A DNA stretch of 64,000 nt, taken from the NCBI GenBank assembly GCA_002973635.1, contig CP027224.1:3110501-3174500 (forward strand), given 5' to 3'. Below, in pieces: positions 1-19,281 of the stretch. The position numbers and the translations under genes are program-made. How positions within the stretch are numbered: the first letter of the stretch is position 1; each line of letters begins with the position of its first letter. The notes below the pieces were generated by a model. That model was not told where the DNA came from, made no database searches, and worked only from the letters and a program-made list of their open reading frames with translations. The stretch comes from Lysinibacillus sp. B2A1. Lineage in GTDB: Bacteria; Bacillota; Bacilli; Bacillales_A; Planococcaceae.

Positions 1-1199
1 ATTGTTGTGACTAGAGATTGGTTCACTAATGTAAATGAAGCAATTGTAGAGATGGCAATGATCACGATCATTTCTGGACTTGTTACACCAGCACGAATGG
101 CTGCATCCCCAATAATTAAACCACCTACAACACTTATCGTTCCTCCAATAACAGAGGGAAGCCGTAAACCAGCTTCACGGAATAATTCGAACATTAGTAG
201 CATCAGTAGCATTTCTAGTGAAGAGGGGAGCGGGAGCCCTGTTTTCGCTTGGACAACTGTTGCTAAAAGCTGCAATGGTAGCTGGTTTTGATGGTAGGTT
301 GTCAGGGCTAACCAAAATGCTGGTAACAATAAGCCAATTAAAATACCGGATATCCTTAATAAACGTTCAACAGAACTAAAGATAATAGGGTATTCATTAT
401 CTTCAGCTGATTTTAATAATAGGAATAAATTCACAGGTGTGATAACAGCATATGCTACACCATCAACGAATATAAGAAAACGCCCCCTGATTAATGCTTG
501 TATGGCATAATCAGGACGTCCAGTATAATCGAATTTTGGGAAAAGCTTAGAGTTTTTATTAATACGTTCCATTAATAAATCCCCACTGAACACTATATCT
601 GTATCAACAGATGCCAATTGCTTCTTAATGCCATGTAAAATATCCATATCGACAATATCATCAAAATAAAGAATGGCAACAGTCGTTTTCGAGCGTTTTC
701 CTAGCTCTACTTTTTCGACACAAAAAGAATTAGTCGGTAATCGTTTTCGCAAAAGAGCTATGTTGACACGTATATCCTCAATAAAATTATCTCGGGGTCC
801 CTTTACAAGAACCTCCATTCTCGTTTCCTCAGGATTTCGATTAGGCTTTTTCGCAATATTACTTGCATATAACAATTCCTCTTCCTCAAAATAAAGCAGA
901 AGAAACCCTGTATAGACAAATGTAATGGCCTCCTCTTTGCCCTTAACTTTTTGCAGTGTAGGGACATGGAGTTCCTTTTCAATATTATCTTCCAGCGGAG
1001 CATCTGTTAAATGGTCAAAGAGATACTGAACGCGCTTTATAATGACTTCATTCAGTAGCTGCTGGTCAATCATCGAATCACAGGTAACGAAATGTACTTT
1101 CTGCTGATTAAATGTATATTCTTGAAACTGAATATCTGCAGATTTTTGAAATAATTTTTTTAAGGTGCTCAGGTCTATAGCCTTCTCCTGCTGAGGCAT
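1..1199 (-). CDS. Spore germination receptor A subunit, GerA family (3' end outside window)
   Basis: Membrane subunit of a nutrient germinant receptor in the spore inner membrane. My minus-strand translation starts MPQQEKAIDLSTLKK and stays open to the window edge, about 399 codons. It shows the soluble N-terminal domain with family hallmarks (VKGPRDNFIEDIRVN, then ELGKRSKTTVAILYFDDIVD) followed by hydrophobic helices starting near the block LLRISGILIGLLLPAFW. The start ATG overlaps the stop of the upstream B-subunit gene by one base, so the two are probably translationally coupled. The order here is B then A; a C-subunit lipoprotein gene would be expected to the left of the window. Family assignment is firm; the germinant cannot be told. 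Confidence 0.9.
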   Translation of the reverse strand, partial: MPQQEKAIDLSTLKKLFQKSADIQFQEYTFNQQKVHFVTCDSMIDQQLLNEVIIKRVQYLFDHLTDAPLEDNIEKELHVPTLQKVKGKEEAITFVYTGFLLLYFEEEELLYASNIAKKPNRNPEETRMEVLVKGPRDNFIEDIRVNIALLRKRLPTNSFCVEKVELGKRSKTTVAILYFDDIVDMDILHGIKKQLASVDTDIVFSGDLLMERINKNSKLFPKFDYTGRPDYAIQALIRGRFLIFVDGVAYAVITPVNLFLLLKSAEDNEYPIIFSSVERLLRISGILIGLLLPAFWLALTTYHQNQLPLQLLATVVQAKTGLPLPSSLEMLLMLLMFELFREAGLRLPSVIGGTISVVGGLIIGDAAIRAGVTSPEMIVIIAISTIASFTLVNQSLVTT

Positions 1200-2323
1200 T
1201 ATGATTCACCACTTTCCATTTCTTGTTTGTCAGACTTCCCCTTTTTTGAGGATTTATCTGAAAAGAATGCTGCTAGGACGAGAAGAACAGAGATTGCAAA
1301 AAAGAAAATAACAGTAGCTGTTAATATATAGTTCCCTTTCACCTTTAAAAATATGTTTTCATTCAAAATAATTAATGGTAAACAAATAAAGAAAAATGGT
1401 GGAGCAAGCATTTTCCATATTTGCTTTGGATCGCTAGTCATTTTTAATAAATCAGCCACTACATATAAGAGGAAACTCACTCTTATAAATGTTCCAGTAA
1501 GCCATTGATAGATTGAGAAAAAGTCTAAATGCTCTATATAGCGACCGATGGAAACTAAGCCCCATTCCTCATAAGCAGGGTATCTTTGTTTAGCAGCTTC
1601 CACCGGGCCGAATTCTGTAATTGCGCCAATAAGAGGTCCTAAAGTAAGCCCCATTAAAATGAAAAGCATGATGCCAAAATGATACCAGCGGATGCGTTCT
1701 TTATATTGATGCTGTAGAAATAACAACATCAATAACTCAATAAATCCTGAAGTAGGATAAATCATTCCCTTTAGAACAGGTGAAAAGCCATGCTCAAAAA
1801 GGGGAAGTAATAAATGGTATTCCTTCACCTGTATATTCGTAAATGCTACAAAAAAACCAAAGACAACTACCCCAAACAATACAAAAACATTTAAAATAAC
1901 GATTGTTTGTAGACTTGTTGTGACAAGTAAAATACAAAGAATCGTATAAATAAACAACAAAATGATGACTGGAGTTTGCGGTAAAAATGTAGTGTTCACC
2001 CATTGCAGCGTTTCAACCATCGTAAAAGCTGCTAAAATAATCAAATATATTGCGATACTATAAATAACAATTGTTGAGCCAGTTTTTCCAATAGTTCCAT
2101 CTAACCAATCTCTAATGGGCTCTTGTTTTGACTTCGATTGAATATAAACTAACAAAAATAGCCAGAAGAATATAATCACTGCTCCTATTATCACGGATAC
2201 CCACCCATCTCTTTTGGCAACGTCAAGCAGCGGTGGAATAATCGTCACATGGTTTTTTAAGCCAATAACAGTCATAGATAAGAAAATAACATGTAAAATA
2301 CTGATTGATCCTACACCTTTCAT
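1199..2323 (-). CDS. Spore germination receptor B subunit, GerAB/YndE-type permease
   Basis: A 374-residue polytopic protein with about ten hydrophobic segments, the length and layout of the endospore germination permease family (APC superfamily fold), which supplies the membrane-embedded part of GerA-type receptors. The start ATG has a GAGGG ribosome site 8 bases upstream. The C-terminus is a short charged tail (KSSKKGKSDKQEMESGES). It overlaps the A-subunit gene by one base, so they form one operon transcribed leftward, presumably late in sporulation in the forespore (known for the family; no sigma-G promoter was resolved here). Confidence 0.9.
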   Translation of the reverse strand: MKGVGSISILHVIFLSMTVIGLKNHVTIIPPLLDVAKRDGWVSVIIGAVIIFFWLFLLVYIQSKSKQEPIRDWLDGTIGKTGSTIVIYSIAIYLIILAAFTMVETLQWVNTTFLPQTPVIILLFIYTILCILLVTTSLQTIVILNVFVLFGVVVFGFFVAFTNIQVKEYHLLLPLFEHGFSPVLKGMIYPTSGFIELLMLLFLQHQYKERIRWYHFGIMLFILMGLTLGPLIGAITEFGPVEAAKQRYPAYEEWGLVSIGRYIEHLDFFSIYQWLTGTFIRVSFLLYVVADLLKMTSDPKQIWKMLAPPFFFICLPLIILNENIFLKVKGNYILTATVIFFFAISVLLVLAAFFSDKSSKKGKSDKQEMESGES

Positions 2324-2441
2324 ATGAAAACCCTCTATCGTTAATTGATACCAATTAGTTTTGACAAAAAGTGAGCGGTTTATAAGTACGTTGACATTCT
2401 CTCAAAAGGAGAATTGTTGAATGGTGCAAGCTATTGAAAAA

Positions 2442-2477
2442 GCGAGGAACTTGACGTATATACATCAAATTCCTCGC
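2442..2477 (-). terminator. Rho-independent terminator after rsiV-like gene
   Basis: A 13-bp stem with one G-U pair (GCGAGGAACTTGA against TCAAATTCCTCGC). On the minus strand it is followed by TTTTT, on the plus strand by a T run a few bases on. It separates the anti-sigma gene from the germination operon. Confidence 0.75.
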
Positions 2478-2494
2478 ATCTTGAATTTTTTTGT

Positions 2495-3385
2495 TTAGTG
2501 AATATATTGCATACTTACAAGATCATTTTTTAACACATTGGTTGGGATTTCGAATTCAACAACGCCCATATAACCAGGAGCAACTTCGTATTTATCGAAG
2601 GAAATTACAAGCTTCCCTTTATCTGAAATATAGAATTGTTGCTCAGCGTTAATTGTTTTAAACTCTTCCATAAGCTCCTCATCAGAGAGACCTGCACCTT
2701 TTACCCAATATACTTTCTCTTGGTTGGAGGCAGCAATTTGTTCCTGCATTTGTTCCTTAATATTATCACTTATAGTTTGAATATAATGATCGTCTTTAAA
2801 GAGCATTGGAAGTGTAATTAAAATTTCATTTTCTTTATCAATCGTATCATAGTGCATAACTGTAGAAGACGATCCGACTGTATTTACGATATAACGTCCA
2901 ATTGATAGGATTTGGTCATTATCAGTTTTAATGTCATAGCCGCTGTCTACTCCTAAATGGCCTCCTCCATTTGCCTTCAAATCTCCGACCTCGGTGATAA
3001 AGTTATCGTAGAGGGCTTTACCTTCTGCACGGTATTTTTCGTTTAAAGTATTAGCAAGTTTTTGATTTTCAAGATTTTCAATAGAGGGCACCGTAATGTT
3101 CGCATCGTATGTGTCCTCAGCTACTTCATATTCCGTCCATGTTAAAACCTTCACAACACTACCAACTACAGGGATTTCAGAAAGTGTACGTGCCATTGCA
3201 GGACTGACATTTAACCCTGCTGTAAAAAGCATAGCGGCCGCTGCTGAACCAAGTAACCATTGTGGCGCTCGTTTTTTTCTCTTCTTTTTCCCTTGATGTA
3301 ATGCACGTTCAACTACAAAATCAAGCTCCTTTGGAATGGGTACTTTATTATATTGCTTTTCTAGGTCTTTTAATTTTTCATCCAT
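2495..3385 (-). CDS. rsiV: Anti-sigma factor, RsiV-like (DUF3298 C-terminal domain)
   Basis: A single-pass membrane protein that would hold the adjacent ECF sigma factor. Residues 1-40 are cytoplasmic and basic, a membrane segment lies at about 42-60 (WLLGSAAAAMLFTAGL), and the extracellular part ends in the DUF3298 signature (VISFDKYEVAPGYMGVVEFE). B. subtilis RsiV has this plan and is destroyed by regulated proteolysis when it binds lysozyme; that role here is an inference. The start overlaps the sigma gene by 8 bases, typical of a coupled sigma/anti-sigma pair. No oatA-like acetyltransferase gene follows, unlike B. subtilis, so the regulon may differ. The symbol marks homology of type, not proven orthology. 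Confidence 0.75.
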   Translation of the reverse strand: MDEKLKDLEKQYNKVPIPKELDFVVERALHQGKKKRKKRAPQWLLGSAAAAMLFTAGLNVSPAMARTLSEIPVVGSVVKVLTWTEYEVAEDTYDANITVPSIENLENQKLANTLNEKYRAEGKALYDNFITEVGDLKANGGGHLGVDSGYDIKTDNDQILSIGRYIVNTVGSSSTVMHYDTIDKENEILITLPMLFKDDHYIQTISDNIKEQMQEQIAASNQEKVYWVKGAGLSDEELMEEFKTINAEQQFYISDKGKLVISFDKYEVAPGYMGVVEFEIPTNVLKNDLVSMQYIH

Positions 3386-3902
3386 GTGCTGTTTCTCCCT
3401 TCACATCTTGCAATTGTATTTTCAGAAGCTTTAGCGCCTTATAAAGACGCGATTTGGCTGTACTCAGCTTTATGTTAAGGATAGTGGCAACATCAGCGAG
3501 CTTTAAATCTTCAAAATAGTGTAAAATGACTACTTCACGATACATTTGAGGTAACTCGTCCAATGCATGCTCTAAGTCAACATTTTCATAGACGTCCTCC
3601 TGAGCAGGTGTTAAATATTGCATTGTATCATCGTCTGTCACTTGTAAGCGTTTATGCTTACGTAAAAAATCTATGGCTGTCCGTACGACAATCTTATAAA
3701 ACCAGCTTTTCATATACTCGACATTTTCGAGGCGATGGAGCGAAAGCATAGCTTTTTGGATACTGTCCTGTACGACATCTAGTGCGTCCTGTTCATTTTT
3801 TGTATAGCTATACGCGAGCAAATAAAATCGCTCTTTTTGTTCACGAATGAATTGGACAAACACCTCTTCATGTTGAAATGCATTTCTTGTTTTCATGTCC
3901 AA
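3378..3902 (-). CDS. sigV: ECF RNA polymerase sigma factor, SigV-like
   Basis: A 174-residue sigma-70 family protein of ECF type: region 2 at about residues 17-85 (FYLLAYSYTKNEQDALDVVQ, then SWFYKIVVRTAIDFLRK) and region 4 at about 110-165 (LPQMYREVVILHYFEDLKLA, then LNIKLSTAKSRLYKALKLL). It directs transcription of an extracytoplasmic stress regulon when released by the downstream anti-sigma factor. Start choice is ambiguous: TTG at 3902 lies 5 bases from AAGGAG, ATG at 3896 lies 11 bases from it. An ECF-type promoter sits just upstream, so the gene probably activates itself. Confidence 0.85.
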   Translation of the reverse strand: MDMKTRNAFQHEEVFVQFIREQKERFYLLAYSYTKNEQDALDVVQDSIQKAMLSLHRLENVEYMKSWFYKIVVRTAIDFLRKHKRLQVTDDDTMQYLTPAQEDVYENVDLEHALDELPQMYREVVILHYFEDLKLADVATILNIKLSTAKSRLYKALKLLKIQLQDVKGETAHG

Positions 3903-3942
3903 AGAAGCTCCTTTTTAACATTTTCAAATTGTATACAACTAC

Positions 3943-3970
3943 TAGACGTATGGAGAGACAAAAAAAGTTG
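3943..3970 (-). promoter_or_regulatory. Putative ECF-sigma autoregulatory promoter
   Basis: On the minus strand CAACTTTTTTT is followed about 16 bases later by CGTCTA. An AAC-containing -35 with a CGTC -10 is the usual ECF pattern. It lies about 45 bases upstream of the sigma gene start, as expected for self-activation. Confidence 0.55.
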
Positions 3971-4369
3971 ATGATATTTAAAAACTTACCCTAATATGAG
4001 ATAAGTTTTATCATTTCAATGTAGCTACATACTAAATTAGGCAATCTTCAATCTTCAATCTTCAATCTTCATAAACTGGACTATTACATAAATCCCACAT
4101 ATAAAGAGAGCACCATAGTCATAATCTAAATGTCCAAAGTATATAAACATAAGGAGGGCATACAATTGCCTTGCTTAATTACATTCATTGCGATTTATCG
4201 TAGCTAAATGAAAGTTAGCTGTAAATATCCGTCGACAAAATGAAATAGTATGTAAGCATTATGATTCTATTGCAATTCTACAAAAAACAAAAATATTCTA
4301 TTTTAAGTATTGTTTTTAGTGTATTATGTAGATAATGATGTTTTTTACGTAAAGGGGACGTGATGACAT
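3971..4369. other. Intergenic region without a gene
   Basis: AT-rich spacer between the divergent sigma gene and the small plus-strand gene. It holds a 7-bp perfect tandem repeat (listed separately). Many short runs of A/T near 4260-4340 could hold the plus-strand promoter, but none was clear enough to call. Confidence 0.5.
4043..4070. repeat. Short tandem repeat, 4 x 7 bp
   Basis: Four perfect head-to-tail copies of AATCTTC. A simple intergenic repeat that could vary in copy number through slippage. Confidence 0.9.
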
Positions 4370-4795
4370 TTGAGTTTAACAAATCATCTCAGAGTGTTTA
4401 TTTGTGTAGTGTTTATGGGTGTATTAGTGGGGTATGTTTTTAATGCCAAAAAGGATATAACGGACAATGAATATATTGAAGTAGTCAAAGAAGGATATTT
4501 GTCCAATTTTTCAGATGTAACGGTTCGTAATGCATTTAATTATGCGTTTTTTGAACCTTATTGGCGATATTATGAGGCAAAAACAGGGGAGCATGTTGTC
4601 GAATTATCAGGTGATATTACGTTTCAAGGGAAAAAAGGACATGCCATATTACAATTTGTTGTAGACGAACAAAACATGGCATTTTCTGCTCATGCGATGA
4701 AGTTTAATGATGATGTGTTAAGTGTTGAGCAAAAAAACAATTTGATTGGCATGGTTTATAAGACTTGGCAGATGAAGCAGCTTGCTTATCAATAA
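4370..4795 (+). CDS. Small membrane-anchored protein of unknown function
   Basis: 141 residues with one N-terminal membrane segment or uncleaved signal (residues 8-23, RVFICVVFMGVLVGYV) and an extracellular domain. The segment ITDNEYIEVVKEGYLSNF then ...FFEPYWRYYEAKTGEHVVEL... resembles a C-terminal domain I recall from Firmicute zinc-ribbon membrane proteins; here the zinc ribbon is absent. That resemblance is from memory and uncertain. The start is TTG with GGGG 12 bases upstream, an unremarkable site. The stop codon lies in a small hairpin (GCTTA, TCAA loop, TAAGC) followed by T6, perhaps its terminator. Confidence 0.7.
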   Translation: MSLTNHLRVFICVVFMGVLVGYVFNAKKDITDNEYIEVVKEGYLSNFSDVTVRNAFNYAFFEPYWRYYEAKTGEHVVELSGDITFQGKKGHAILQFVVDEQNMAFSAHAMKFNDDVLSVEQKNNLIGMVYKTWQMKQLAYQ

Positions 4796-4870
4796 GCTTT
4801 TTTATTTTATAAAAAATGCATCCTATATTACAGTAGAAAGGGGAGTCTACAGAGAGAGAGGATGTTTTCA

Positions 4871-5863
4871 ATGAAGTTAAGTATTTTAGATCAAATGCCT
4901 ATACCGAAAGGTCACACGGCTGAGGAGGCATTTCAACGTACAGAACAATTGGCATTTTTAGGTGAAGCGCTTGGCTATCATCGTATGTGGCTAGCGGAAC
5001 ACCATAATAGTAACTCATTGGCAAGCTCTGCTCCAGAAGTTACAGCTGCTTTTTTAGCTGCGAAAACGAAGCGACTTCGTATTGGTACTGGTGGAGTGAT
5101 GATGATGCACTACTCACCGTATAAGCTAGCAGAGGTCTTTAAAACATTAAGTGGCTTGGCACCTAATCGAATAGACTTTGGTGTTGGCAGAGCCCCTGGT
5201 GGCGATCATGCCGCTATTTATGCACTAGCAGAAGGGCGAAGACAGCGTTTTACGGAGCAATATGACAAGTTTGAAATTATATTAAAATTGATGAATAACC
5301 AAAAGACGGGCGAATATGTCTATGATCAGGTTATAGCAGCTCCCGTTGATATTCAGTTACCTGAGGCATGGTTGCTGGGGTCTAGCGGACAAAGTGCGAT
5401 GCAGGCAGGACAGCTTGGTGTGGGCTATTCATATGCTCAATTTTTTACAGGCAATATGTCAAAGGATATTTTCGATTCTTATAGAGCTTACTTTACTCCT
5501 TCCTATTACATGGAAAATTCTCAAATTATCGTTACCTATGCTGCAACTGTTGCAGATACCTTAGAGGAAGCAGAATATTTGGCTAAGCCTATTGATATTA
5601 CACGGTTGCACTTGATGAAAGGGCAAATCATTCAAGGAATGTCACCCGACGAGGCAAAGGATTTCCCGCTGACCGAAATGGATAAAATGTCAATTGCGAA
5701 TAATCGCAAGGCTAATCTTGTAGGAACACCTAAGGAAATCGCTGACTTTTTAGTAGCAGAGCAAGAGCACTATGGCTTTGACGAAGTTATGCTGAACTGC
5801 AACCAATATGAACAAGAAAGTCGCATGAATTGCTATAAGCTACTTGCTAAAGAATTATTATAG
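4871..5863 (+). CDS. Luciferase-like flavin-dependent monooxygenase (LLM class)
   Basis: A 330-residue TIM-barrel flavoprotein of the bacterial-luciferase-like family, subgroup MsnO8/YceB-type: N-terminal MKLSILDQMPI, then AEHHNS, IGTGGVMMMHYSPYKLAE and RIDFGVGRAPGGD, all conserved positions. These enzymes use FMNH2 and oxygen on small organic substrates; the substrate here is unknown. ATG 4871 is preferred over 4862 because the AGAGAGAGAGG ribosome site ends 9 bases before it and family members begin at this Met. It stands alone between a small unknown gene and a convergent radical SAM gene. Confidence 0.88.
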   Translation: MKLSILDQMPIPKGHTAEEAFQRTEQLAFLGEALGYHRMWLAEHHNSNSLASSAPEVTAAFLAAKTKRLRIGTGGVMMMHYSPYKLAEVFKTLSGLAPNRIDFGVGRAPGGDHAAIYALAEGRRQRFTEQYDKFEIILKLMNNQKTGEYVYDQVIAAPVDIQLPEAWLLGSSGQSAMQAGQLGVGYSYAQFFTGNMSKDIFDSYRAYFTPSYYMENSQIIVTYAATVADTLEEAEYLAKPIDITRLHLMKGQIIQGMSPDEAKDFPLTEMDKMSIANNRKANLVGTPKEIADFLVAEQEHYGFDEVMLNCNQYEQESRMNCYKLLAKELL

Positions 5864-5871
5864 AAACATAA

Positions 5872-5910
5872 AATGTCCAATGCTTGTTGATTTCCGCATT
5901 GGACATTTTT
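5872..5910. terminator. Bidirectional terminator between convergent genes
   Basis: AAATGTCCAATGC and GCATTGGACATTT form a 13-bp stem followed by a T run on the plus strand and preceded by an A-rich segment (T-rich on the minus). It serves the monooxygenase gene and the convergent yfkAB gene. Confidence 0.85.
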
Positions 5911-7092
5911 TTATATTTTAGCAGAGCCACTAACAAACTCCGCTCCTTTATAATACATATTTTTAACAAGCACGTTTGGACCTAAGCATCTGACTGCTGG
6001 ACAATGACAGTTAAGTGACTTTGCTAAATCCGTGGACATCCATTTGTCAAAAATAGCTGGTAACTCATCCTTCACAATATTGCCAAGTGCTGGTGTATCG
6101 CCAAAGTCTGTGACAATAACATCACCTGAGAAAATATTGATATTTAAGCGAGAGCGACCATCTGGATCATTACGCATCGTAACATTTTTTGCTTCTCTTA
6201 ATCGTTTCAAAAGCAGTTGATCTTTTTCATTTATACTACAAGGATAGAAAGGTAGGGTACCAAATAGCATCCATGTGTTTTCATCTCGAACATCCAGCAG
6301 ATGATGAATCGCATCACGAGTTTCCTCTAGTGATAAAGAGGTAAGGGCACTGGCAAAATCAGAAGGGTATGTATCTGAATCTTGCATCTTTGGGAACTCA
6401 GTCATACCAGCGAATCCGCTATCATACATAGGGTGAATTTCATGCCTAGCACACCCCATTTCCTCAATGACTTGCTTATGAATCTTCTCTAAGTAAGGTA
6501 ATGTTTTTTTGTTCAGCATTGTCTCAGCTGATACCAATACCCCCATTTCAGATAGAGCCTTAGCATTTTTAATCATGTTATCAAACAATGCTTCTCTTTG
6601 TTCTCTAGTAGGTTTTCTTTTCATCATGCCAAAACCTACATCAATAAATTCATCTACAGTTCCCCAGTTATGAGATATGTGTAGTACATCTAAATAGGGT
6701 GCTATGAGTTTGTATCTCTCTAAGTCTAATGTCAGATTAGAATTTATTTGAGTTTTTACTCCACGCTTATGGGCATATTTCAATAAAGGCAGTACATAGT
6801 TTTCTACAGATTTGAGAGACATCATAGGCTCTCCTCCAGTAATACTCATGGAGCGTAAGTGAGGTATCTCCTCTAATCTTTGTAGTAGTAGCTCTATTGG
6901 AAGTCCTTTAGCATCTTTGTGTGACAAGGTATGACCTACAGCACAGTGGGAGCATCTCATGTTACAGAGGTTTGTAGTGGTAAATTCAATATTGGAAAGA
7001 GTGAGCTGTCCATGCTGTTCTATGTCGAGGTAAGACTCCCATGCATCATTTTGAGGTGTAACTTTGGAGATGGTATTAATCTGTTCATTCAT
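5911..7092 (-). CDS. yfkAB: Radical SAM / CxCxxxxC protein, YfkAB type, with a replaced N-terminus
   Basis: 393 residues. The radical SAM Fe4S4 motif is CNMRCSHC (Cx3Cx2C, near residues 43-50), followed by the SAM-binding SITGGEP, and the C-terminal CHCPAVRC motif that names the YfkAB family. The biochemical role of the family is unknown to me. The start ATG has AGGAG 7 bases upstream. Oddity: the first nine residues (MNEQINTIS) and the whole 5' leader appear to come from the adjacent recombinase element; a second candidate start (MTTLQK) for the same gene lies at 8935 on the same strand, 1.85 kb upstream. The joint falls at the codons for KVTPQN, so the frame is preserved. Confidence 0.9.
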   Translation of the reverse strand: MNEQINTISKVTPQNDAWESYLDIEQHGQLTLSNIEFTTTNLCNMRCSHCAVGHTLSHKDAKGLPIELLLQRLEEIPHLRSMSITGGEPMMSLKSVENYVLPLLKYAHKRGVKTQINSNLTLDLERYKLIAPYLDVLHISHNWGTVDEFIDVGFGMMKRKPTREQREALFDNMIKNAKALSEMGVLVSAETMLNKKTLPYLEKIHKQVIEEMGCARHEIHPMYDSGFAGMTEFPKMQDSDTYPSDFASALTSLSLEETRDAIHHLLDVRDENTWMLFGTLPFYPCSINEKDQLLLKRLREAKNVTMRNDPDGRSRLNINIFSGDVIVTDFGDTPALGNIVKDELPAIFDKWMSTDLAKSLNCHCPAVRCLGPNVLVKNMYYKGAEFVSGSAKI

Positions 7093-7094
7093 TT

Positions 7095-7138
7095 CAATTA
7101 CTCCTATCTATTAAATACTTCTTTATTATGAGTAATTG
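7095..7138. promoter_or_regulatory. Inverted repeat over the yfkAB ribosome site
   Basis: CAATTACTC (7095-7103) and GAGTAATTG (7130-7138) are perfect 9-bp arms. The left arm covers the AGGAG site of yfkAB, so a hairpin or a bound protein could limit its translation or transcription. Confidence 0.45.
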
Positions 7139-7179
7139 GAGTAACATATGTCAATGTATCCGTCTGTTGTAAAAAACAA

Positions 7180-7207
7180 TGCAATATGGAATGTAATAAA
7201 TATTGCA
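7180..7207. promoter_or_regulatory. Inverted repeat between yfkAB and the recombinase gene
   Basis: TGCAATAT and ATATTGCA, 8-bp perfect arms 12 bases apart, in the divergent promoter region of the element. A candidate operator for recombinase control; no partner repressor is encoded here. Confidence 0.4.
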
Positions 7208-7274
7208 TCTACTTAAGAGCAAGTAATAAATGGTATATTACATAGATAAACATATCAGGAGATGAAGTTTAAAG

Positions 7275-8873
7275 ATGGCAAAGGAGAAAAGAAATCAAGT
7301 CCTAGGATATGTCAGGAAGTCAAGACTCAAGGACTCAAAAGGAATGGAGATTGACAGACAGATTGAGCTGTTAGAGGACTATGCAGAACAACATAAACTA
7401 GATGTAAAAATATATGCTGAGCAGAGTAGCTCAGAGGATTGGGAAGGTAGGCCACAATTACAAGCTATGCTAATAGAGCTACAGATAGGTATATATGATG
7501 GGGTCCTAGTAACAGACCAAGATAGGATTGTGAGGGATAACTTTGATTTTCTAAAGTTTATAAAGATATTAGCTAACAATGGCTTACTATTGTATACACT
7601 CAACAAAGTCTATAACCCATTAGATGATGGTGATGCTTTCTTCTTAGGTTTACAGGGTGAGATGGATACTAGGCTAATGAAAATTACTAAGAGAAAGCTC
7701 AAAAGAGGTAGAATACAGGCTATTAACAAAGGAGTTTACTTTGGAATTGCTCCATATGGATATACTAAGGATACCGATAAGCACTTATTACCTTTAGAGA
7801 ATGAGGCTCAAGTTGTTAAAGACGTCTTTGATATGTATGTTAATCAGGGACTTAATCAAGCTGAGATATGTGAGCAGTTGACTCTGAAAGGTAAGAAGTC
7901 TAGAAAAGGTAAAGCCTTTACTCCTAGAGCCACCTCCCTAATATTATCTAATGTAGCTTATAAAGGTATTGTACATTATGAAATGGAGGGAGAGCCTGTT
8001 ATGCATGTAGAGGAGGCTCATCCTGCTTTAGTAGATGAGAATACATGGGATAAAGCGCAGCAGATAAGAAAGGTCAAAAGGAAAGTACCTCAGCAGTCAC
8101 AGAGAGGAATATATACTTTATCTAGACTGTTAATATGTCTTGAGTGTAAGCAAACCTTATCTTTTTGTATGAAATACAATAACAGAAAAGGTAGAGCCAA
8201 ACTAGATAAGGACAGTAGGGATCTTTATATATTAAATTGCTATTCAAGTAAAGGGCAGAGAGCTAGGACTGAGTGGAATGAGTCAGGTAAAACTAGATGT
8301 AAAAACAATGGAGTTAGGGCAAATAGGATTGAGGAGGCTTTGTTTGCTAAGCTCAAAGAAAATCTAAAAGACATAAATGATAGAATTAGTGCTGTAGTAT
8401 CAGGTGAGATAGATGTAATATCTGTTGTAGAGAAAAAACAGCAGGAACTAACTATACAGCATATCAAGCTAGATGAAGAAAAGAAAAGGATACAAGATGG
8501 ATACAAAGCAGGTATCTATGAGGCCGAAGAGGCTATTGCGGAGATAAAAAGAATAAAGGAGCAACAGAAAGCTATACAGCAGGAGTTAAAGAGTATGGAG
8601 GGAGCAGACGTTAAGGAAGTAGTAGATAAGCTACAGGAGCAAAAAAATAAGATACAGTATCTGCTTTCTATGGATATTAAAGCTAATCCAGCTAAGACAA
8701 ACAAGCTGTTACATGAGATTATTGATAAGGTCTACTATTGGAAAGAGCTTACTGATAATGGTGGAGAAACAGACTTTGTAATAATACCTGTATATCACGG
8801 TGAGAGTGGGACTGATGATCTTTACAATAATAAAATACAGGATGAAGCGAAAAAACAAGAATATTTAACCTGA
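7275..8873 (+). CDS. Large serine recombinase (integrase)
   Basis: 532 residues. Residues 8-150 form the resolvase domain with the nucleophile Ser in YVRKSRLKDSKG (about S16) and the conserved VTDQDRIVRD; next is the recombinase domain (GVYFGIAPYGYTK to about 260), a zinc-ribbon with CLEC (about 286-289) and later Cys pairs, then a long coiled coil rich in K/E at about 365-470. This is the architecture of phage and ICE integrases that join attP and attB by double-strand cleavage. ATG 7275 follows AGGAG by 13 bases. Its codon use (many AGG/AGA, CTA, TAC/AAC choices) differs from neighbours, pointing to transfer. No recombination directionality factor is visible. Confidence 0.92.
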   Translation: MAKEKRNQVLGYVRKSRLKDSKGMEIDRQIELLEDYAEQHKLDVKIYAEQSSSEDWEGRPQLQAMLIELQIGIYDGVLVTDQDRIVRDNFDFLKFIKILANNGLLLYTLNKVYNPLDDGDAFFLGLQGEMDTRLMKITKRKLKRGRIQAINKGVYFGIAPYGYTKDTDKHLLPLENEAQVVKDVFDMYVNQGLNQAEICEQLTLKGKKSRKGKAFTPRATSLILSNVAYKGIVHYEMEGEPVMHVEEAHPALVDENTWDKAQQIRKVKRKVPQQSQRGIYTLSRLLICLECKQTLSFCMKYNNRKGRAKLDKDSRDLYILNCYSSKGQRARTEWNESGKTRCKNNGVRANRIEEALFAKLKENLKDINDRISAVVSGEIDVISVVEKKQQELTIQHIKLDEEKKRIQDGYKAGIYEAEEAIAEIKRIKEQQKAIQQELKSMEGADVKEVVDKLQEQKNKIQYLLSMDIKANPAKTNKLLHEIIDKVYYWKELTDNGGETDFVIIPVYHGESGTDDLYNNKIQDEAKKQEYLT

Positions 8874-8916
8874 GAGGTTTGCTCACTCTTTATGTCACTG
8901 TTATTGAAATGGTAAC

Positions 8917-8960
8917 CTTTTTGTAGGGTCGTCATAATTCGTACATCTTCCTTTCTAGCA
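8917..8960 (-). pseudogene. Displaced original 5' end of yfkAB
   Basis: Minus strand: AGGAAG, 11 bases, ATG at 8935 and codons for MTTLQK up to the core repeat; further reading leaves homology at once. The six codons fit directly onto KVTPQNDAW of the intact gene. The former yfkAB promoter should lie between here and 9171. Short, so assignment rests on frame agreement and geometry. Confidence 0.6.
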
Positions 8961-9171
8961 ATCTATTGTCTCATATTCGTTGCTATTTTCAAATATGAAA
9001 TTATCAAAAGTGCTATTTTTAGGGTAATTATCGCCTTCATTTATTGAATAATCTGCTTGATCAAACCAAATATTGGATAAAGAAAAACGATTTTGCTGTT
9101 ATTTTTTTAGAAAAACGTTATGATAGTAAGAGCGAAATGGTAATATAGCACCAAAGAAAGTAGGAAATAAC

Positions 9172-9876
9172 ATGACAAAGTATGAAACATTATTGTTTGA
9201 TGTAGATGACACTTTATTAGATTTTGATGTTGCTGAAAATGCAGCACTTAACCATTTATTTAAGCAGGAAAACATCATAGCAACCCCAACATTGGTTTCA
9301 CGTTATAAAGAAATAAATGAATCTATGTGGCGTGCTTTTGAACGTGGTGAAGTGGCTAAAGATACGCTACATAATACGCGATTTTCTATTGCATTAAAGG
9401 AATTCGGCTATGATGTTGATGGTACCTATTTTGAAGCAATTTTTCAGAAATATTTGCAGGAGGCACACCATTATGTAGATGGTGCCTATGAAGTCATTCA
9501 GCAGCTAGCTAATGACTATGATTTATATGTTGTATCTAATGGTAAAACAGGTACTCAAAATAAACGATTACAGGATGCACAACTAGCTCAATTTTTTAAA
9601 GGCATCTTTATATCAGAGCAAACTGGCTTTCAGAAACCAATGCCAGCCTTTTTTGACTACGTTTTTGAACGTATTGATGGGTTACAAAAGGATAAAACAT
9701 TAATTATTGGCGATTCATTAACATCTGATATAAAAGGCGGATTACAAGCAGGCATTGATACATGCTGGTTTAATATACGCCATATTGACAATACAAGTAC
9801 GATTCAACCGCATTATGAAATTAAAAAGCTACACGAGCTACATGTCCTATTAGACAATAAAATAACACTTATATAG
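9172..9876 (+). CDS. HAD-superfamily nucleotide phosphatase, YjjG/YfnB type
   Basis: 234 residues. Catalytic motif I is DVDDTLLDF (nucleophile Asp, residues 10-14), motif II VVSNG, motif III Lys in the QKPMP region, motif IV IIGDSLTSDIKGG. These motifs and length match the YjjG family of pyrimidine 5'-nucleotidases, which clear non-canonical nucleoside monophosphates; substrate is inferred from family. Monocistronic, with a strong terminator 11 bases after the stop. Its upstream region was probably shared with a divergent yfkAB promoter before the element inserted. Confidence 0.88.
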   Translation: MTKYETLLFDVDDTLLDFDVAENAALNHLFKQENIIATPTLVSRYKEINESMWRAFERGEVAKDTLHNTRFSIALKEFGYDVDGTYFEAIFQKYLQEAHHYVDGAYEVIQQLANDYDLYVVSNGKTGTQNKRLQDAQLAQFFKGIFISEQTGFQKPMPAFFDYVFERIDGLQKDKTLIIGDSLTSDIKGGLQAGIDTCWFNIRHIDNTSTIQPHYEIKKLHELHVLLDNKITLI

Positions 9877-9887
9877 AAACATGCTTA

Positions 9888-9918
9888 CTACACTTCGCAA
9901 ATTGAAGTGTAGTTTTTT
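9888..9918 (+). terminator. Terminator of HAD phosphatase gene
   Basis: CTACACTTC, 7-base loop, GAAGTGTAG, then T6. Confidence 0.9.
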
Positions 9919-10031
9919 GTTGGAAAATTTCTAGGACTAGAGAGCTTAGTGGAGTATATGCTAAAAATACTATATTTTTACAAAGTGTATTCCAGTATGA
10001 TAGTTTTAGATGAAAAGAAAGGAGCAGCAAC

Positions 10032-10945
10032 ATGAAAGGAAAAATTCGAGCGGGAGTACTAGCCGGCATACTAAGTATTACATTGGCAACTCCTTTACAA
10101 GCACATGCCTATCAAGAGCCCACGGATTATGTACATATGAAAACATCAAATATGATTGTTTACTCTGCCTATGGCGCCAAAATTAATGCCTCTGAAAAGG
10201 GCGATACGTTTAGTATTAAAGCGACTATCGTCAATAACCGTCAGCCTCTAGAAATTGAAATTTTCAAAAATGGACAGGATGGAATTTTAAAACAAGTAGC
10301 TAAAAAAGGGGTAATGGAGCCTGTTGCGTATCGAGACTTAGGCGATCGCGTGGTTGCCATAATTCATAATAGTGCAGAATTAAAATTTGTAAATCCACAG
10401 CCAATTTACTTTCGAGATATAGATAATTCAGAGTATAGTACGTATATTTCTACATTAGCGGAACGGGGTATTGTCCAAGGAAGAACAGCAGATCATTTTG
10501 GCGTAAATGATTCTTTAACACGTGCTCAGTTTAGTGCATTACTAGCCCGTGCCTTCAGCTTTCAACCAGTTCAAGCAACCCAATTTAAAGATATTGATGC
10601 CAAGAAATCCTGGTATGGGGCTATGTTGGTGCATTACATTCTTTAGGAATTATCAAAGGAAAATCTCAAAATTTATTTGATCCTAATGGGAAAATAACAC
10701 GACAGCAAGCAATACTAATGGTTGGTCGAACATTGGATGCAGTTGATTTTGTTCAAGAAGAATTTGTGTCTTTACCTTATCAAGATAGCTTTAATCTACA
10801 AGAGGAAGCATTGCACCATACACAAACTTTATATGCAATTGGAGCGTTAAACGACCATATGAATTTATTACCAAATCAAACGATTACACGAGGAGAATTT
10901 GCTAAAATGCTAGCGGTATCATTAGAAGCTGCTGGAAGAATGTAA
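10032..10945 (+). pseudogene. SLH-domain surface protein, broken by a one-base frameshift
   Basis: Starts with a signal peptide (residues 1-26, ending PLQAHA) and a short unique region, then three S-layer homology domains: YFRDIDNSEYSTYIS..., FKDIDAKKSWYG..., and LPYQDSFNLQEEAL.... SLH domains bind pyruvylated secondary cell-wall polymer. The first frame stops at 10646 within SLH domain 2; the rest continues in another frame from about 10621 (YVGALHSLGIIKGK...) to 10945. One extra T between GGGGCT and ATGTTGG would restore WYGAYVGALHSLG, so a single base appears lost. It is either a real loss of function or a sequencing error. Ribosome site AAAGGAG precedes ATG 10032. Confidence 0.85.
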
Positions 10946-10957
10946 TAGTAACAGTAA

Positions 10958-10988
10958 GTCGAGGACATTATGTCTCTCGACTTTTTTT
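10958..10988 (+). terminator. Terminator after SLH gene
   Basis: GTCGAG GACA, loop TTA, TGTC, one bulged T, CTCGAC, then T7. The 250 bases after it up to cntK hold only the cnt control region and a possible 20-codon remnant of a minus-strand gene end (FAEQLITFIDKSK, stop at 10987). Confidence 0.8.
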
Positions 10989-11233: not shown

Positions 11234-12052
11234 ATGTTACAGGAAGTTGAATTTATAAAAATGAACCCTACAGAAAATATGACTGTATTAATAAAAACAC
11301 CTCATGCTATTGCAGATTACACAAAAATTGCGACCAAAATAATGTCTTATAGCAATGTCCATGCTGAACAGGTTGGCTTTATATGTGAATCAGCACATGA
11401 TGATGTACATGCAAGGCTCTGCATGTCAGGTGGGGAGTTTTGTGGAAATGCTTGTATGGCACTAGCTTGTTTACTCGCATCAGAGCAGCCAAGTATAAAA
11501 AATGTTGTACTGGAGTCCTCCGGGATGGAGGATTTAGTTATTTGTACTGTTGAAAAAAATGCTCAGCAATTTGAATGCCAAGTAACTATGCCTGTGCCTG
11601 ATAAAATTTGGAGCAGAAAGCTTCCTTTTGGAGAAATCAATCTGGAAACAATTTTTATTAAATATAACTGCTTTCTTCACATTATTGTCAAAGTAATTGC
11701 CTTTGATAATGCTGTAAAGGAAAATGCAGAGAGTCTAGCTAAATTATTGGGCAGCGCAATGGATGAACAACTAATCGGTATATTATTGTACAAAGAAGAA
11801 ACTGCCGAATTAAAGCCTCTCATTTTTGTACCAGCTTTAGATAGCATGGTTTGGGAAAGTGGATGTGGCTCAGGAACAGCATCTATCGGTTATTTTTTAG
11901 CATGGAAAAACAGGGCTAAGATTATGACCAATGTGAAGCAGCCAGGAGGCATTATTCAAGTTTTTGCTAATTACACAGAGACATCAAAGTATGCACATAT
12001 TAAGGGTGTTGTTGAAATAGTAGCAAAGGGAACAGCATATATTGAACTTTAA
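11234..12052 (+). CDS. cntK: Histidine racemase for opine metallophore, CntK type
   Basis: 272 residues of the diaminopimelate-epimerase fold. The two catalytic Cys are visible in GGEFCGNACMA and SGCGSGTASIG, at the places used by DapF and by CntK. CntK converts L-His to D-His, the first building block of staphylopine; assignment to CntK rather than DapF rests on the operon, which follows cntKLMABCDFE exactly. ATG 11234 has AAGGAG 8 bases upstream. First gene after the Zur-like box. Confidence 0.85.
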   Translation: MLQEVEFIKMNPTENMTVLIKTPHAIADYTKIATKIMSYSNVHAEQVGFICESAHDDVHARLCMSGGEFCGNACMALACLLASEQPSIKNVVLESSGMEDLVICTVEKNAQQFECQVTMPVPDKIWSRKLPFGEINLETIFIKYNCFLHIIVKVIAFDNAVKENAESLAKLLGSAMDEQLIGILLYKEETAELKPLIFVPALDSMVWESGCGSGTASIGYFLAWKNRAKIMTNVKQPGGIIQVFANYTETSKYAHIKGVVEIVAKGTAYIEL

Positions 12053-12076
12053 TTCCAAAGCATAGGAGTGAAGTAT

Positions 12077-12880
12077 GTGAAGGTTGCACAATCTTTTTTA
12101 GGAAAACTACATGACTTTGATAATAAATTTCAGCTCTTGATTAATCAAAGCAATCAGCATCAAGCGGAGAATGAAAATATAGAGCTACGAGAAATAATCG
12201 ATGACTATTCTTCGTTTATTACGAATCCTGATCATGAAAAATATTGGCTTCATTTAGATTCATCAACTGAAATAGTAACGTTAATCGAGAAACTAAGAGC
12301 AAACTCCTCTGTTTGTGTGAAACTTATGGAAAAATATCGTGCTTTAAAATTATTGCATGAAAATGAGGAAATCGCTGACTATTTTCGTAATATTGAAGAC
12401 TGTATTGAAAAGGAATTTGGCGGCTTTCAAATTACCAATCAATCCAAAGTGTTATTAGTGGGGTCTGGCGCTTTTCCTATGACCTTATTATTGATTGCAG
12501 AACGAACAGGTGCCGAAGTCTTTGGCATTGATATTGATGATGAAGCCATTCAATTGGGTAGACAGGTAGTACATAAATTAGGAAAGCATTTACCGATTCA
12601 AATTTACAATAAGCCTGTAGAGGACCTCGCAGCTATTCAACAAATTAGCCATATTATATTTAGCTCAACCGTTAGCTGCAAATATGACATATTAGAACAA
12701 TTATATGATGTCACAAAACAGGATGTAATCGTTGCTATGCGATATGGAGATGGATTAAAGTCTCTTTTTAATTATCCAATGAGAACGGTAGACGCAACAA
12801 AATGGCAATTAGTAGAGCAAATTATGCACCCTCAAAGTGTATTCGATATTGCTTTGTATCAAAAAGCTCAATCAATTTGA
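12077..12880 (+). CDS. cntL: Nicotianamine-synthase-like aminobutanoyltransferase, CntL type
   Basis: About 267 residues. A Rossmann methyltransferase-like core is seen at the SAM site (VLLVGSGAFPMTLLLIAERT then VFGIDIDDEAI), with a helical N-terminal part. CntL moves an aminobutyrate group from S-adenosylmethionine to D-His. GTG 12077 is preferred to GTG 12068 because AGGAG (12064-12068) is 8 bases before it. Follows cntK by 24 bases. Confidence 0.85.
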   Translation: MKVAQSFLGKLHDFDNKFQLLINQSNQHQAENENIELREIIDDYSSFITNPDHEKYWLHLDSSTEIVTLIEKLRANSSVCVKLMEKYRALKLLHENEEIADYFRNIEDCIEKEFGGFQITNQSKVLLVGSGAFPMTLLLIAERTGAEVFGIDIDDEAIQLGRQVVHKLGKHLPIQIYNKPVEDLAAIQQISHIIFSSTVSCKYDILEQLYDVTKQDVIVAMRYGDGLKSLFNYPMRTVDATKWQLVEQIMHPQSVFDIALYQKAQSI

Positions 12881-12897
12881 TAGATAGGGAGAAGGGT

Positions 12898-14187
12898 ATG
12901 ACTTATTTTAAAAGGGTTTTACTGTTAGGAACAGGGCCGACAGCTATTCAATTAGCTGTCAATCTTAAGAATTATTTAAATAGTAAAGTAGCTATAGCTG
13001 GCCGAGAGTCTTTACGCTCCAATATGTTCTATGAGGCTGTAATCCAACAGCAGCTTGCAATTAAAGTACATATACAAAATCCACAGCATCAATCTGTCGC
13101 GGGAGAATGTATGCTCGATGATCTTTTTAAGGGATATCATACAATTTCAGGGGATTGGGATACGGTTGTCCTAAGTGTCACTACTGATGCTTATATGGAC
13201 GTATTATCACAAATTGATAGCCAAGTATTGAAGAAGGTCAAATGCTTTCTTTTAATTTCACCAACATTTGGCTCTAATCATTTAATTAGGAATTATTTAA
13301 AGCAAATTTCTTCTTGTGCTGAGGTGATTAGCTTTTCAACCTACTATGGTGATACAAGGTGGCTACAGGATGTACCTTCAAATGAGGTGATAACAACAGG
13401 AGTAAAGAAAACCATTTACATTGGCTCCTATGGGACGAAAATGGATCGCTTGGCAAAGCTAAGTGAACTATTTTATCAGCTAGGTATTGAATTAAAAGTT
13501 TTAGCAACACCGTTAGAGGCAGAAACAAGAAATATCTCTTTATATGTACATCCTGCCTTGTTTATGAATGATTTTTCATTAAAGGCTATATTTGACGAGC
13601 AAACAATAACGAAGTATGTTTATAAGCTTTATCCTGAGGGGCCTATTACATATACAATGATTCGCCATTTATTAAATTATTGGAAAGAAATGATGGAGAT
13701 TGTGAAGCAGGTCAATATTCAACCTCTGAATTTATTAAAGTTCATGGTAGACGATAACTATCCATTACAATCTGCTAGTATTGCTCGACAAGATATAGAA
13801 AATTTCAGCAAGCTTGAGTCTATTCATCAAGAGTATCTGCTCTATATTCGATATGCTTCTTTATTAATAGATCCATTTTCTAAACCCACTCAAGAGGGAA
13901 AATATTTTGATTTTTCAGCAGTTCCTCTTAGAAGGATTTTTATGAATCATCAGGGTGAATGGGATATTCCTAGAATGCCCAAAGAAGATTACTACCGTGT
14001 GAAAATTATTCAGGGAATTGCTAAGGCACTAAGGCTGGAAAGTCCAACAATTGATTTATTCATACAGACTTATGAAGAAAAACTGCAACAAATGGTCGCT
14101 TCATCTCAGAACAGATCATACTCAGAGGCCTTTCAAGTAAAATCTTTTTCACAAGATATCGAGATGATATGCAAGGAATTAACATAA
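12898..14187 (+). CDS. cntM: Opine dehydrogenase, CntM type
   Basis: About 429 residues. N-terminal NAD(P)-binding Rossmann motif LLLGTGPTAIQLAVNL. CntM condenses the CntL product with an alpha-keto acid (pyruvate gives staphylopine, alpha-ketoglutarate gives pseudopaline-like products); the keto acid used here cannot be read from sequence. The frame is open from 12802 but ATG 12898 is the start: GGGAGAAGGG precedes it and the Rossmann motif then sits at residue 8-12; a 12802 start would overlap cntL by 79 bases. Confidence 0.85.
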   Translation: MTYFKRVLLLGTGPTAIQLAVNLKNYLNSKVAIAGRESLRSNMFYEAVIQQQLAIKVHIQNPQHQSVAGECMLDDLFKGYHTISGDWDTVVLSVTTDAYMDVLSQIDSQVLKKVKCFLLISPTFGSNHLIRNYLKQISSCAEVISFSTYYGDTRWLQDVPSNEVITTGVKKTIYIGSYGTKMDRLAKLSELFYQLGIELKVLATPLEAETRNISLYVHPALFMNDFSLKAIFDEQTITKYVYKLYPEGPITYTMIRHLLNYWKEMMEIVKQVNIQPLNLLKFMVDDNYPLQSASIARQDIENFSKLESIHQEYLLYIRYASLLIDPFSKPTQEGKYFDFSAVPLRRIFMNHQGEWDIPRMPKEDYYRVKIIQGIAKALRLESPTIDLFIQTYEEKLQQMVASSQNRSYSEAFQVKSFSQDIEMICKELT

Positions 14188-14234
14188 AAAGTTAATAAAA
14201 TACAAATTGAATGCACTATAAGGAGCGAACGGCA

Positions 14235-15824
14235 TTGGTTAAAAGAATACAAACAATTATAGCAATGATTTTTACACTATTCATACTAGTGGCATGTTCA
14301 ACGACTACAGAAAAAAGTGAGTTGAAAAAAGATGAGCTTGTGTATGCCACTGTAAAGGACATTAATGACATGAACCCTCATTTATACCCTGGCTCCATGT
14401 CAGCCCAGGGCATGGTTTATGAATCGTTAGTAGAAAATACGGAGGATGGCATTAAACCATTGCTTGCTGAATCCTGGGATATTTCGAAGGATGGGACAAT
14501 CTATACCTTCCATTTAAGAAAAGATGTTGTCTTTCATGATGGAGAGCCGTTTAATGCGGATGCTGTCAAACAAAATATTGAGGCCGTTCAGCGAAATAAG
14601 GAAAAGCATGCATGGATTAAATTATCAACAAAAATTTTGAATGTAGAGGCTGTTGATGAATGGACTGTACGTTTAACACTTTCTGAGGCATATTATCCAA
14701 CATTAGTGGAATTATCCATGACACGTCCATATGTGTTCCTCTCGCCAAAAGATTTTAAAAATGGGGAAACAAAAGATGGTGTACAAGGTTTTCATGGCAC
14801 AGGACCTTATCAGCTAATGGAGCATAAGGTAGATCAATATGCTGTGTTTGAGGCAAATGAAAAATATTGGGCGGGATCACCGAAGTTAAAAAAAATTACA
14901 GCGAAAGTTTTGCCTGCGGGAGAAACAACACTACTAGCCCTGCAAAAAGGGGAAGTGAATTTTGCCTTTACGGATGATCGAGGTGCGGACAGTATTCATA
15001 TCGAAGGCATGAACAAGCTAGTACAGACAGGTGATTATCAACTTGTTAGAAGTAAACAAATGAATACAAAAATGATTGTGGCTAACAGCAGTAAAATGGA
15101 TAATCCCGTTAGTGATAAGAGTGTTCGGGAGGCTATTTGGTACGCCATTGATCGCGAAACAATTAGCCGTGATATTTTCGAAGAGGCAGAAACACCAGCA
15201 AATTCACTTTTTTCCACAAATATTAATTATGCAGGTATTCCATTACAACAACGAAATTATGATGCTGTAAAAGCGAATGATTTATTAGAAAAAGCCGGAT
15301 GGACAAGGAGTACTGAGGGAGCAGTACGAGAGAAAAATGGCAAGAAATTAATGATACAACTTTTTTACGATAGTAATTCATCGTCTCAAAAGGCACAGGG
15401 AGAGTATATGCAACACGCATTGAAAGGCATTGGCATCGATTTAGAATTAATTGGGGAGGAATCCACTTCCATCGCCAATCGAAGAACAACAGGAGAGTAT
15501 GATTTATTATTCAATCAAACATGGGGCTTAGCCTATGATCCGCAAAGTACTGTGGCTGCTTTTACGGCTTCTTATAAACATGCAACACAGGGAATTGCAA
15601 ATGCCAATCAATTCTATCAAAAAATTGAGGATGTTTTAGTTTCAAGAGAGGAAGACCAGCGCAGGGCATTATACAAGGATATTTTGACAACTGTACATGA
15701 GGAAGCAATCTTCATTCCTCTTACGAATGGCAATGTAACGGTAGTTGCTCCTAAGCAATTACAGGGTATTTCGTTTAAGCAGACGCAATACGAATTACCA
15801 TTTGAACAAATGTATTTTCAATAG
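14235..15824 (+). CDS. cntA: Metallophore/nickel-type ABC transporter substrate-binding lipoprotein, CntA type
   Basis: A 529-residue SBP of the peptide/nickel family (SBP_bac_5). Lipobox LFILVACS gives a lipidated Cys near residue 22. Core landmarks: AESWDISKDGTIYTFHLRKD, FHDGEPFNADAVKQNIE, FHGTGPYQL. It captures the metal-metallophore complex at the cell surface. TTG 14235 is chosen: AAGGAG (14220-14225) lies 9 bases before it, whereas ATG 14211 has no ribosome site. Confidence 0.88.
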   Translation: MVKRIQTIIAMIFTLFILVACSTTTEKSELKKDELVYATVKDINDMNPHLYPGSMSAQGMVYESLVENTEDGIKPLLAESWDISKDGTIYTFHLRKDVVFHDGEPFNADAVKQNIEAVQRNKEKHAWIKLSTKILNVEAVDEWTVRLTLSEAYYPTLVELSMTRPYVFLSPKDFKNGETKDGVQGFHGTGPYQLMEHKVDQYAVFEANEKYWAGSPKLKKITAKVLPAGETTLLALQKGEVNFAFTDDRGADSIHIEGMNKLVQTGDYQLVRSKQMNTKMIVANSSKMDNPVSDKSVREAIWYAIDRETISRDIFEEAETPANSLFSTNINYAGIPLQQRNYDAVKANDLLEKAGWTRSTEGAVREKNGKKLMIQLFYDSNSSSQKAQGEYMQHALKGIGIDLELIGEESTSIANRRTTGEYDLLFNQTWGLAYDPQSTVAAFTASYKHATQGIANANQFYQKIEDVLVSREEDQRRALYKDILTTVHEEAIFIPLTNGNVTVVAPKQLQGISFKQTQYELPFEQMYFQ

Positions 15825-15872
15825 TTTAGCAAATGAAATTAGACCATTTGCTAAATTTACAGGAGGTTTTTG

Positions 15873-17695: not shown

Positions 17696-17698
17696 GCA

Positions 17699-19253: not shown

Positions 19254-19281
19254 GGAAATTCTAATAATAAGGGGGAGGAGG

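Follow-up and report, generated by a model that had tools for sequence, protein, structure and literature searches.

The window, that is, the whole stretch of 64,000 nucleotides that was analyzed, corresponds to positions 3110501-3174500 of the one contig (G000:C1) of a 5.5-Mb genome. The yfkAB reading frame occupies 5911-7092 on the minus strand and is divergent from a large serine recombinase gene (7275-8873, plus strand; an open reading frame of 532 aa), which an earlier sequence-only reading had correctly placed to the right of the yfkAB body. Two segments make up yfkAB: a 3′ part of host origin (5911-6369, minus strand), comprising hybrid codons 242-393 plus the stop and encoding the YfkB domain (PF08756, residues 242-388 of the hybrid protein), and a 5′ half of 241 codons (6370-7092, minus strand), which encodes the radical SAM domain (residues 39-192) and a linker and appears to be a replacement half brought by an element. 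An attL scar, recognized by comparison with the attL of other elements, spans their border (6352-6384, minus strand), with the left arm CAAGATTC kept. Upstream of the hybrid start lies a promoter-like site (TTGACA-18-CATAAT, 11/12; 7125-7154, minus strand), identified by its match to the consensus; such sites are not in excess in the region (7 found versus 13.1 in shuffles). Beyond the recombinase stop, a deletion junction of 44 bases without a match to G014, the nearest relative (8874-8917), leads to a native yfkAB stub of codons 1-6 (8918-8935, minus strand). The stub is recognizable from the empty loci of the genus and from G014, and its start (ribosome site, ATG at 8935, MTTLQK) is the second yfkAB-like start noticed earlier. 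The native upstream region (8936-8992, minus strand) matches the empty loci and holds the ribosome site and a consensus-based promoter-like site (8965-8992); it is followed by a host neighbor with a domain match to HAD-like hydrolases (9172-9876, plus strand).

Comparison with G014 revealed that the identity breaks within yfkAB. The window was 92.4% identical to this genome over 1-6369, 70% over 6425-7017, and 91.6% over 8918-10986; in steps of 120 bases, DNA identity was 91-95% over 5738-6337 and 63-72% over 6458-7057, and the right flank of the locus was 89-92% identical. The break falls at 6369/6370 and the host match resumes at 8918, one base later than the 8917 reported earlier. The hybrid reading frame of 393 codons is open across the junction, and its protein of 393 residues, versus 370 in natives, contains about 20 extra residues directly after His-Pro-Met-Tyr. 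Residues 1-223 were 75-83% identical to seven element-linked yfkABs from other genera, 72-76% identical to 26 natives and 70-77% identical to displaced native halves of other genomes, while the last 150 residues were 82-93% identical to natives and 63-74% identical to the seven element-linked proteins. The displaced half of G133 shares 76.7% identity with the window N-half, a value inside the range of the hybrids, so identity alone fails to separate the groups, and the separation comes from the tree: the window N-half grouped with the seven element-linked N-halves (support 95/96), and the window C-half grouped with G014 (support 93/90, just below the strong-support threshold used). Staphylococcus aureus yfkAB, which fell outside the element clade in the tree, was ruled out as the donor of the 5′ half. 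Judged by the alignments and the tree, the window yfkAB is a chimera of a host 3′ part and a foreign 5′ half with its break at 6369/6370, and the foreign segment is put at about 6370-8917; the extent proposed earlier, 7062-8916, leaves out the 241 yfkAB codons.

In the genus, a yfkAB match was present in 32/32 genomes searched, the window's own included. All 26 uninterrupted loci that were fetched lacked an insert at the codon-6 place and had 5′ ends matching the window stub, so that the empty site predicted from the sequence was found in the relatives; 24 of them start with MTTLQ (21 with MTTLQK), L017 starts with MKTLQ and L029 with MTTTLREITP. Since G000 holds a single yfkAB match, native codons 7-221 are gone from this genome. 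Five other genomes (G001, G010, G011, G020 and G023; loci L071, L073, L075, L076 and L077) had a native yfkAB that was split, partial or absent together with a second complete yfkAB, which is 57-58% identical, forms its own clade and, in four of the five, adjoins the split or partial native gene. This is another way, in which inserts carry an entire gene along. In G001, the native gene is split at about codon 82-90, next to a piece of a recombinase zinc ribbon.

The recombinase passed the cut-offs of PF00239 (69.7 bits, cut-off 23.3) and PF07508 (62.5 bits, cut-off 21.1) and matched the integrase family phrog_95; for the C-terminal region, the zinc-ribbon model PF13408 was unreported at E 0.001, and the cysteines are conserved in the alignment with relatives. 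It was rejected as SCCmec CcrB or CcrC (90.9 and 49.4 bits versus an NCBIfam equivalog cut-off of 900) and as an IS607 transposase (31.1 bits versus an equivalog cut-off of 110). Relatives with 54-63% identity were found in seven Bacillaceae assemblies, and in 7/7 of these loci a divergent full-length yfkAB with the linker adjoins the recombinase gene; further relatives at 44-45% sit in yfkAB of G023 and G133. No relatives of the recombinase element were detected in viral_contigs by a peptide-pattern search or in plasmids at 1e-40. With phage large serine integrases (TP901-1 and others) the enzyme shares the catalytic and recombinase domains, but it differs in that its match to the TP901-1 catalytic domain was weak (E 6e-4), the best phage records were at most 28% identical (among 20 listed of 322), and 0/322 covered 80% of the query. 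The gene in the window is open and probably idle.

Both junctions were readable in the five genomes that keep a displaced native half (G267, G263, G262, G133 and G023), which hold one element of 15.2 kb, two insertions of about 134 kb and two elements split across contigs. The host site reads CACCC(T/G)ATG|TA(C/T)CC or a close variant, the crossover falling in ATG|TA; the arms of the element are CAAGATTC or similar on the left, starting 21 bases before the crossover, and (G/A)AATCT(C/T)ATG or similar on the right, reaching to about 23 bases past it. The arms form an inverted repeat whose best dyad centre coincides with the crossover in 5/5 genomes. Among 2000 shuffles, the observed arm pairing was reached by 0 in G133, 4 in G023, 17 in G262, 49 in G263 and 186 in G267, in which the putative dyad is weak. 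By the junctions of these relatives, the attachment site would be the His-Pro-Met-Tyr codons at native codon ~221, between the radical SAM and YfkB domains, and not the 5′ end of yfkAB at codon 6 where integration had been placed before. We infer the window's own attP from these elements, because its recombinase is only 54-63% and its 5′ half only 75-83% identical to those of the nearest kin. At the window attL the left arm is present, with an in-frame gap of six bases that takes in the core ATG; between 8873 and 8918, no attR was found.

The sequence TATGTCACT is common to 8874-8917 and to L079 after position 11533, both 3′ of the recombinase, and it resembles the attP right arm in opposite orientation; both likenesses were noted by eye and may be due to chance. 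A small ORF of about 50 aa with the end KLN.(D/E)KLI(R/K)K.LSL or similar adjoins attR in G267, G263, G262 and G133 (loci L102, L103, L104 and L105), its stop lying 57-81 nt from the HPMY codons; the G262 copy is cut by the contig end, a scrap is present in L083, and in G023 the likeness of the attR-proximal ORF is doubtful. The small ORF might encode a directionality factor.

A complete element is present in Bacillus horikoshii (G267, L102), in which the displaced native half (2054-2725) ends with HPMYTM and a stop and the hybrid lies on the same contig. Its element measures 15.2 kb from crossover to crossover and has genes for a small resolvase, a restriction protein resembling MrcB, and a protein whose GmrSD match stays below the cut-off. 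Downstream of the recombinase in Peribacillus cavernae (L080) come a resolvase, an HNH/ABC-three-component protein and a DUF2326 protein; the HNH/ABC-3C CTD11 and DUF2326 proteins (12173-15675 of L080) weakly matched PADLOC models of candidate defence systems. G023 and G133 each hold an insertion of about 134 kb, with an FtsK-like and an actin-like gene near its ends. Element relatives with both ends on one contig thus range from 15 to 134 kb, and the gene contents of G267 and L080 make a variable, defence-like cargo possible.

In total, 14 hybrids, from a complete element to a bare chimera, were collected: the window, the seven Bacillaceae assemblies with a recombinase relative, G437, G450 and G482, and G604, G631 and G313. 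The displaced native half is present in three (G267, G263 and G262, frameshifted in the last). Eight (the window, L079, L082, L083, L084, G437, G450 and G482) have the recombinase; a genome-wide look for the displaced half yielded nothing in them beyond short stubs, which occur in the window, L079 and L083. In the remaining three (L136, L137 and L138), no complete recombinase occurs within the 19.9 kb fetched, the stretch in which the displaced half was also sought; L136 has a scrap of the recombinase C-terminus and L137 and L138 have none. Because most hybrids were found through the recombinase, the proportion that retain it is overestimated: a single draw of 397 genomes yielded the recombinase in 9 and the 5′ half in 12. 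In the window's family, the hybrid 5′ half was matched in 5/261 genomes at the threshold used, of which four matches reach only query residue 230 of 239 and have native-length frames, leaving the hybrid in one. The attL core ATGTA(C/T)CC persists in 10/14 hybrids, the exceptions, with a lost or altered core, being the window, L079, L083 and L123 (partly by eye); a kept core does not show a working site, since the same stretch codes for Met-Tyr-Pro. At L123 (G482), the hybrid junction is strongly altered, without an HPMYPSDF-like return, and the frame is still open. The mosaic yfkAB, the junctions in relatives and the graded decay can all be read in the aligned sequences.

The pattern recurs in Priestia koreensis (L083). 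Compared with a congener that has a native yfkAB (L139), its identity was 91-100% over 8300-9139 and then 58-72% across the 5′ half, and to the right of its recombinase native codons 1-20 and the upstream bases match L139 and are joined to EVHPIYPI and a stop. We read the EVHPIYPI junction as attR, with the codons between deleted, and the L083/L139 comparison as a second, independent case.

These data suggested that a decayed integrative element had entered the middle of yfkAB and swapped its 5′ half, leaving a relic with the chimera and the recombinase, a reading to which we assign a probability of about 0.9. In the proposed course, an element carrying its own yfkAB 5′ half, which ends at attP beside the recombinase gene and points in the opposite direction, would recombine attP with attB at the His-Pro-Met-Tyr codons by means of its large serine recombinase. 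Integration would fuse the element half in frame, with the ~20-residue linker, to the host 3′ half, and the resulting chimeric gene would use a start codon and ribosome site supplied by the element, while the host 5′ half, stranded beyond the element, would decay. In G000, native codons 7-221 and the remainder of the element would later have disappeared through one or more deletions, and six bases of the attL core would have been lost in frame. We infer this order of events, along with the expression and activity of the hybrid and the loss of mobility. A serine-recombinase insertion into yfkAB with a new start, MNEQINTIS, and the old start on the far side had rightly been proposed from the sequence.

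The candidate of an intact integrative element was rejected, as the attL core lacks six bases and attR was not found; so was an intact prophage, as the recombinase is the sole gene between 7092 and 8918 and structural or packaging genes of phages are lacking there. With its damaged attL core and no attR found, the locus is probably a relic with a retained chimeric gene, and an active, mobile one-gene element is improbable. The earlier choice between a cargo-free element and a prophage remnant therefore stands as far as a remnant is concerned, and a working cargo-free element is contradicted by the lost attL core and right end and by the 15 to 134 kb of the relatives.

A related explanation takes the 2.5-kb unit of 5′ half and recombinase, from attL to attR, as the minimal mobile element, of which the window copy is damaged. 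The attR of L083 lies about 300 bases past its recombinase, so an att-bounded unit of about 2.7 kb exists, but a resolvase gene or scrap follows the recombinase in L080, L081, L082 and L084, the G267 element has 15.2 kb, and L083 itself retains a fragment of the small ORF found at the end of larger elements, which suggests internal deletion; we consider this explanation very unlikely. Even less probable is a gain of the recombinase and foreign 5′ half by homologous recombination with a donor from another genus, no site-specific integration having taken place in this lineage: two crossovers would likewise yield a host-foreign-host sequence, but the left break coincides with the attL crossover of other elements and adjoins a linker absent from natives, the identical break recurs in Priestia, and the right break spares only six native codons. 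Least tenable of all, to the point of being negligible, is a 1,855-base element without cargo that used a short CTTT core at codon 6 to enter an otherwise native yfkAB, an explanation that accords with the native start right of the recombinase and with the absence of the insert in 26/26 fetched relatives, but is already contradicted by the mosaic, in which the yfkAB piece to the left is of foreign origin for 241 codons, by the lack of CTTT at all 26 empty sites, by the HPMY site of related elements, and by the varying length of the native stub (about codon 20 in L083, about 38 in L079 and 6 in the window), a variation that argues against codon 6 as a fixed core. The sense strand at the empty sites reads CAAAAAAT, CAAAAACT or a variant and never AAAG (read by eye), window positions 7000-9000 contain 19 copies of CTTT, and 138 of 660 aligned 4-mers are identical between native and element 5′ halves anyway; the CTTT at 7062-7065 (plus strand) is no attachment core. 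The restored frame that had supported it follows from homology: what lies to the left is a yfkAB 5′ half too, and a native stub of any length aligns with it.

Under the preferred reading of a decayed element in mid-yfkAB, the native half has decayed, excision would therefore destroy the gene, and the replacement half would thereby be locked in. We tentatively extend this, at somewhat less than even odds, to the serine-recombinase family as a gene-half exchanger with a ratchet, in which removal would destroy yfkAB and the half, often with the recombinase, would become a permanent part of the host. If so, catalytic halves that evolved in elements would travel through Bacillota over repeated rounds, and domesticated chimeras would persist even without another trace of the element. 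Low dN/dS among the element 5′ halves (dS 0.35 and dN 0.032 for L080-L136; dS 0.22 and dN 0.038 for L084-L121) fits function, without showing function after integration, as the test mixes selection before and after that event; pairs with the window have dS values of 1.33-2.15.

Elements that restore their target gene are known. The dusA-specific integrative elements (IMEVchUSA3) and the ICE SXT in prfC insert at the 5′ end of the target, and about 35 dusA residues are replaced, according to PMC8409611. As in these islands, element sequence completes the reading frame of the target in the window, yet the yfkAB element replaces ~221 of 370 native codons (~60%), including the whole radical SAM domain, and it differs further in using a serine recombinase and in leaving relics with the chimera. 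The integrases of the SXT/prfC and dusA elements are tyrosine recombinases. Phage 21 and e14 in icd of Escherichia coli also supply one end of the coding sequence of their target, as the yfkAB element does; there it is the 3′ end, a small part is replaced and the integrase is a tyrosine integrase. The common view of integrases is that the target is either spared or broken. Here, the whole catalytic domain of the target appears to have been swapped and kept, which provides a testable way for mobile DNA to rewrite conserved enzymes and implies that trees of such genes are mosaics broken at the att site. The locus also offers a predicted att pair of a serine integrase and, with its relatives, a graded set of stages between the complete element and the bare chimera.

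S. aureus prophages (phiSA169 and others) have their attB in yfkAB (PMC11852059, PMC8638950, PMC13380623 and PMC7329321), and a legend in this literature describes a new yfkAB start codon after integration. The target gene is common to both; the differences are that the two phage records examined label the integrase next to yfkAB as integrase or xerC and that the S. aureus gene, as noted, lies apart from the element clade. In the literature on yfkAB with an integrase or prophage, all reports retrieved concerned Staphylococcus, judging from titles or the opening of abstracts, and a search for yfkAB with radical SAM found none; the main text of a serine-recombinase survey (PMC10083194), as far as accessible, contains no yfkAB. 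A half-gene replacement this large was not found in the literature searched, mostly open-access and partly accessible, the dusA case (PMC8409611) being the nearest exception; such absence is no proof of being unpublished.

Elsewhere in the window, 11234-20454 holds an operon like the staphylopine (cnt) metallophore system, in which the Pfam models Staph_opine_DH, CntA and CntE scored over the cut-off and the CntK-like, CntL-like and dehydrogenase matches fell below the NCBIfam cut-offs; G014 has only ~70 bases in its place.
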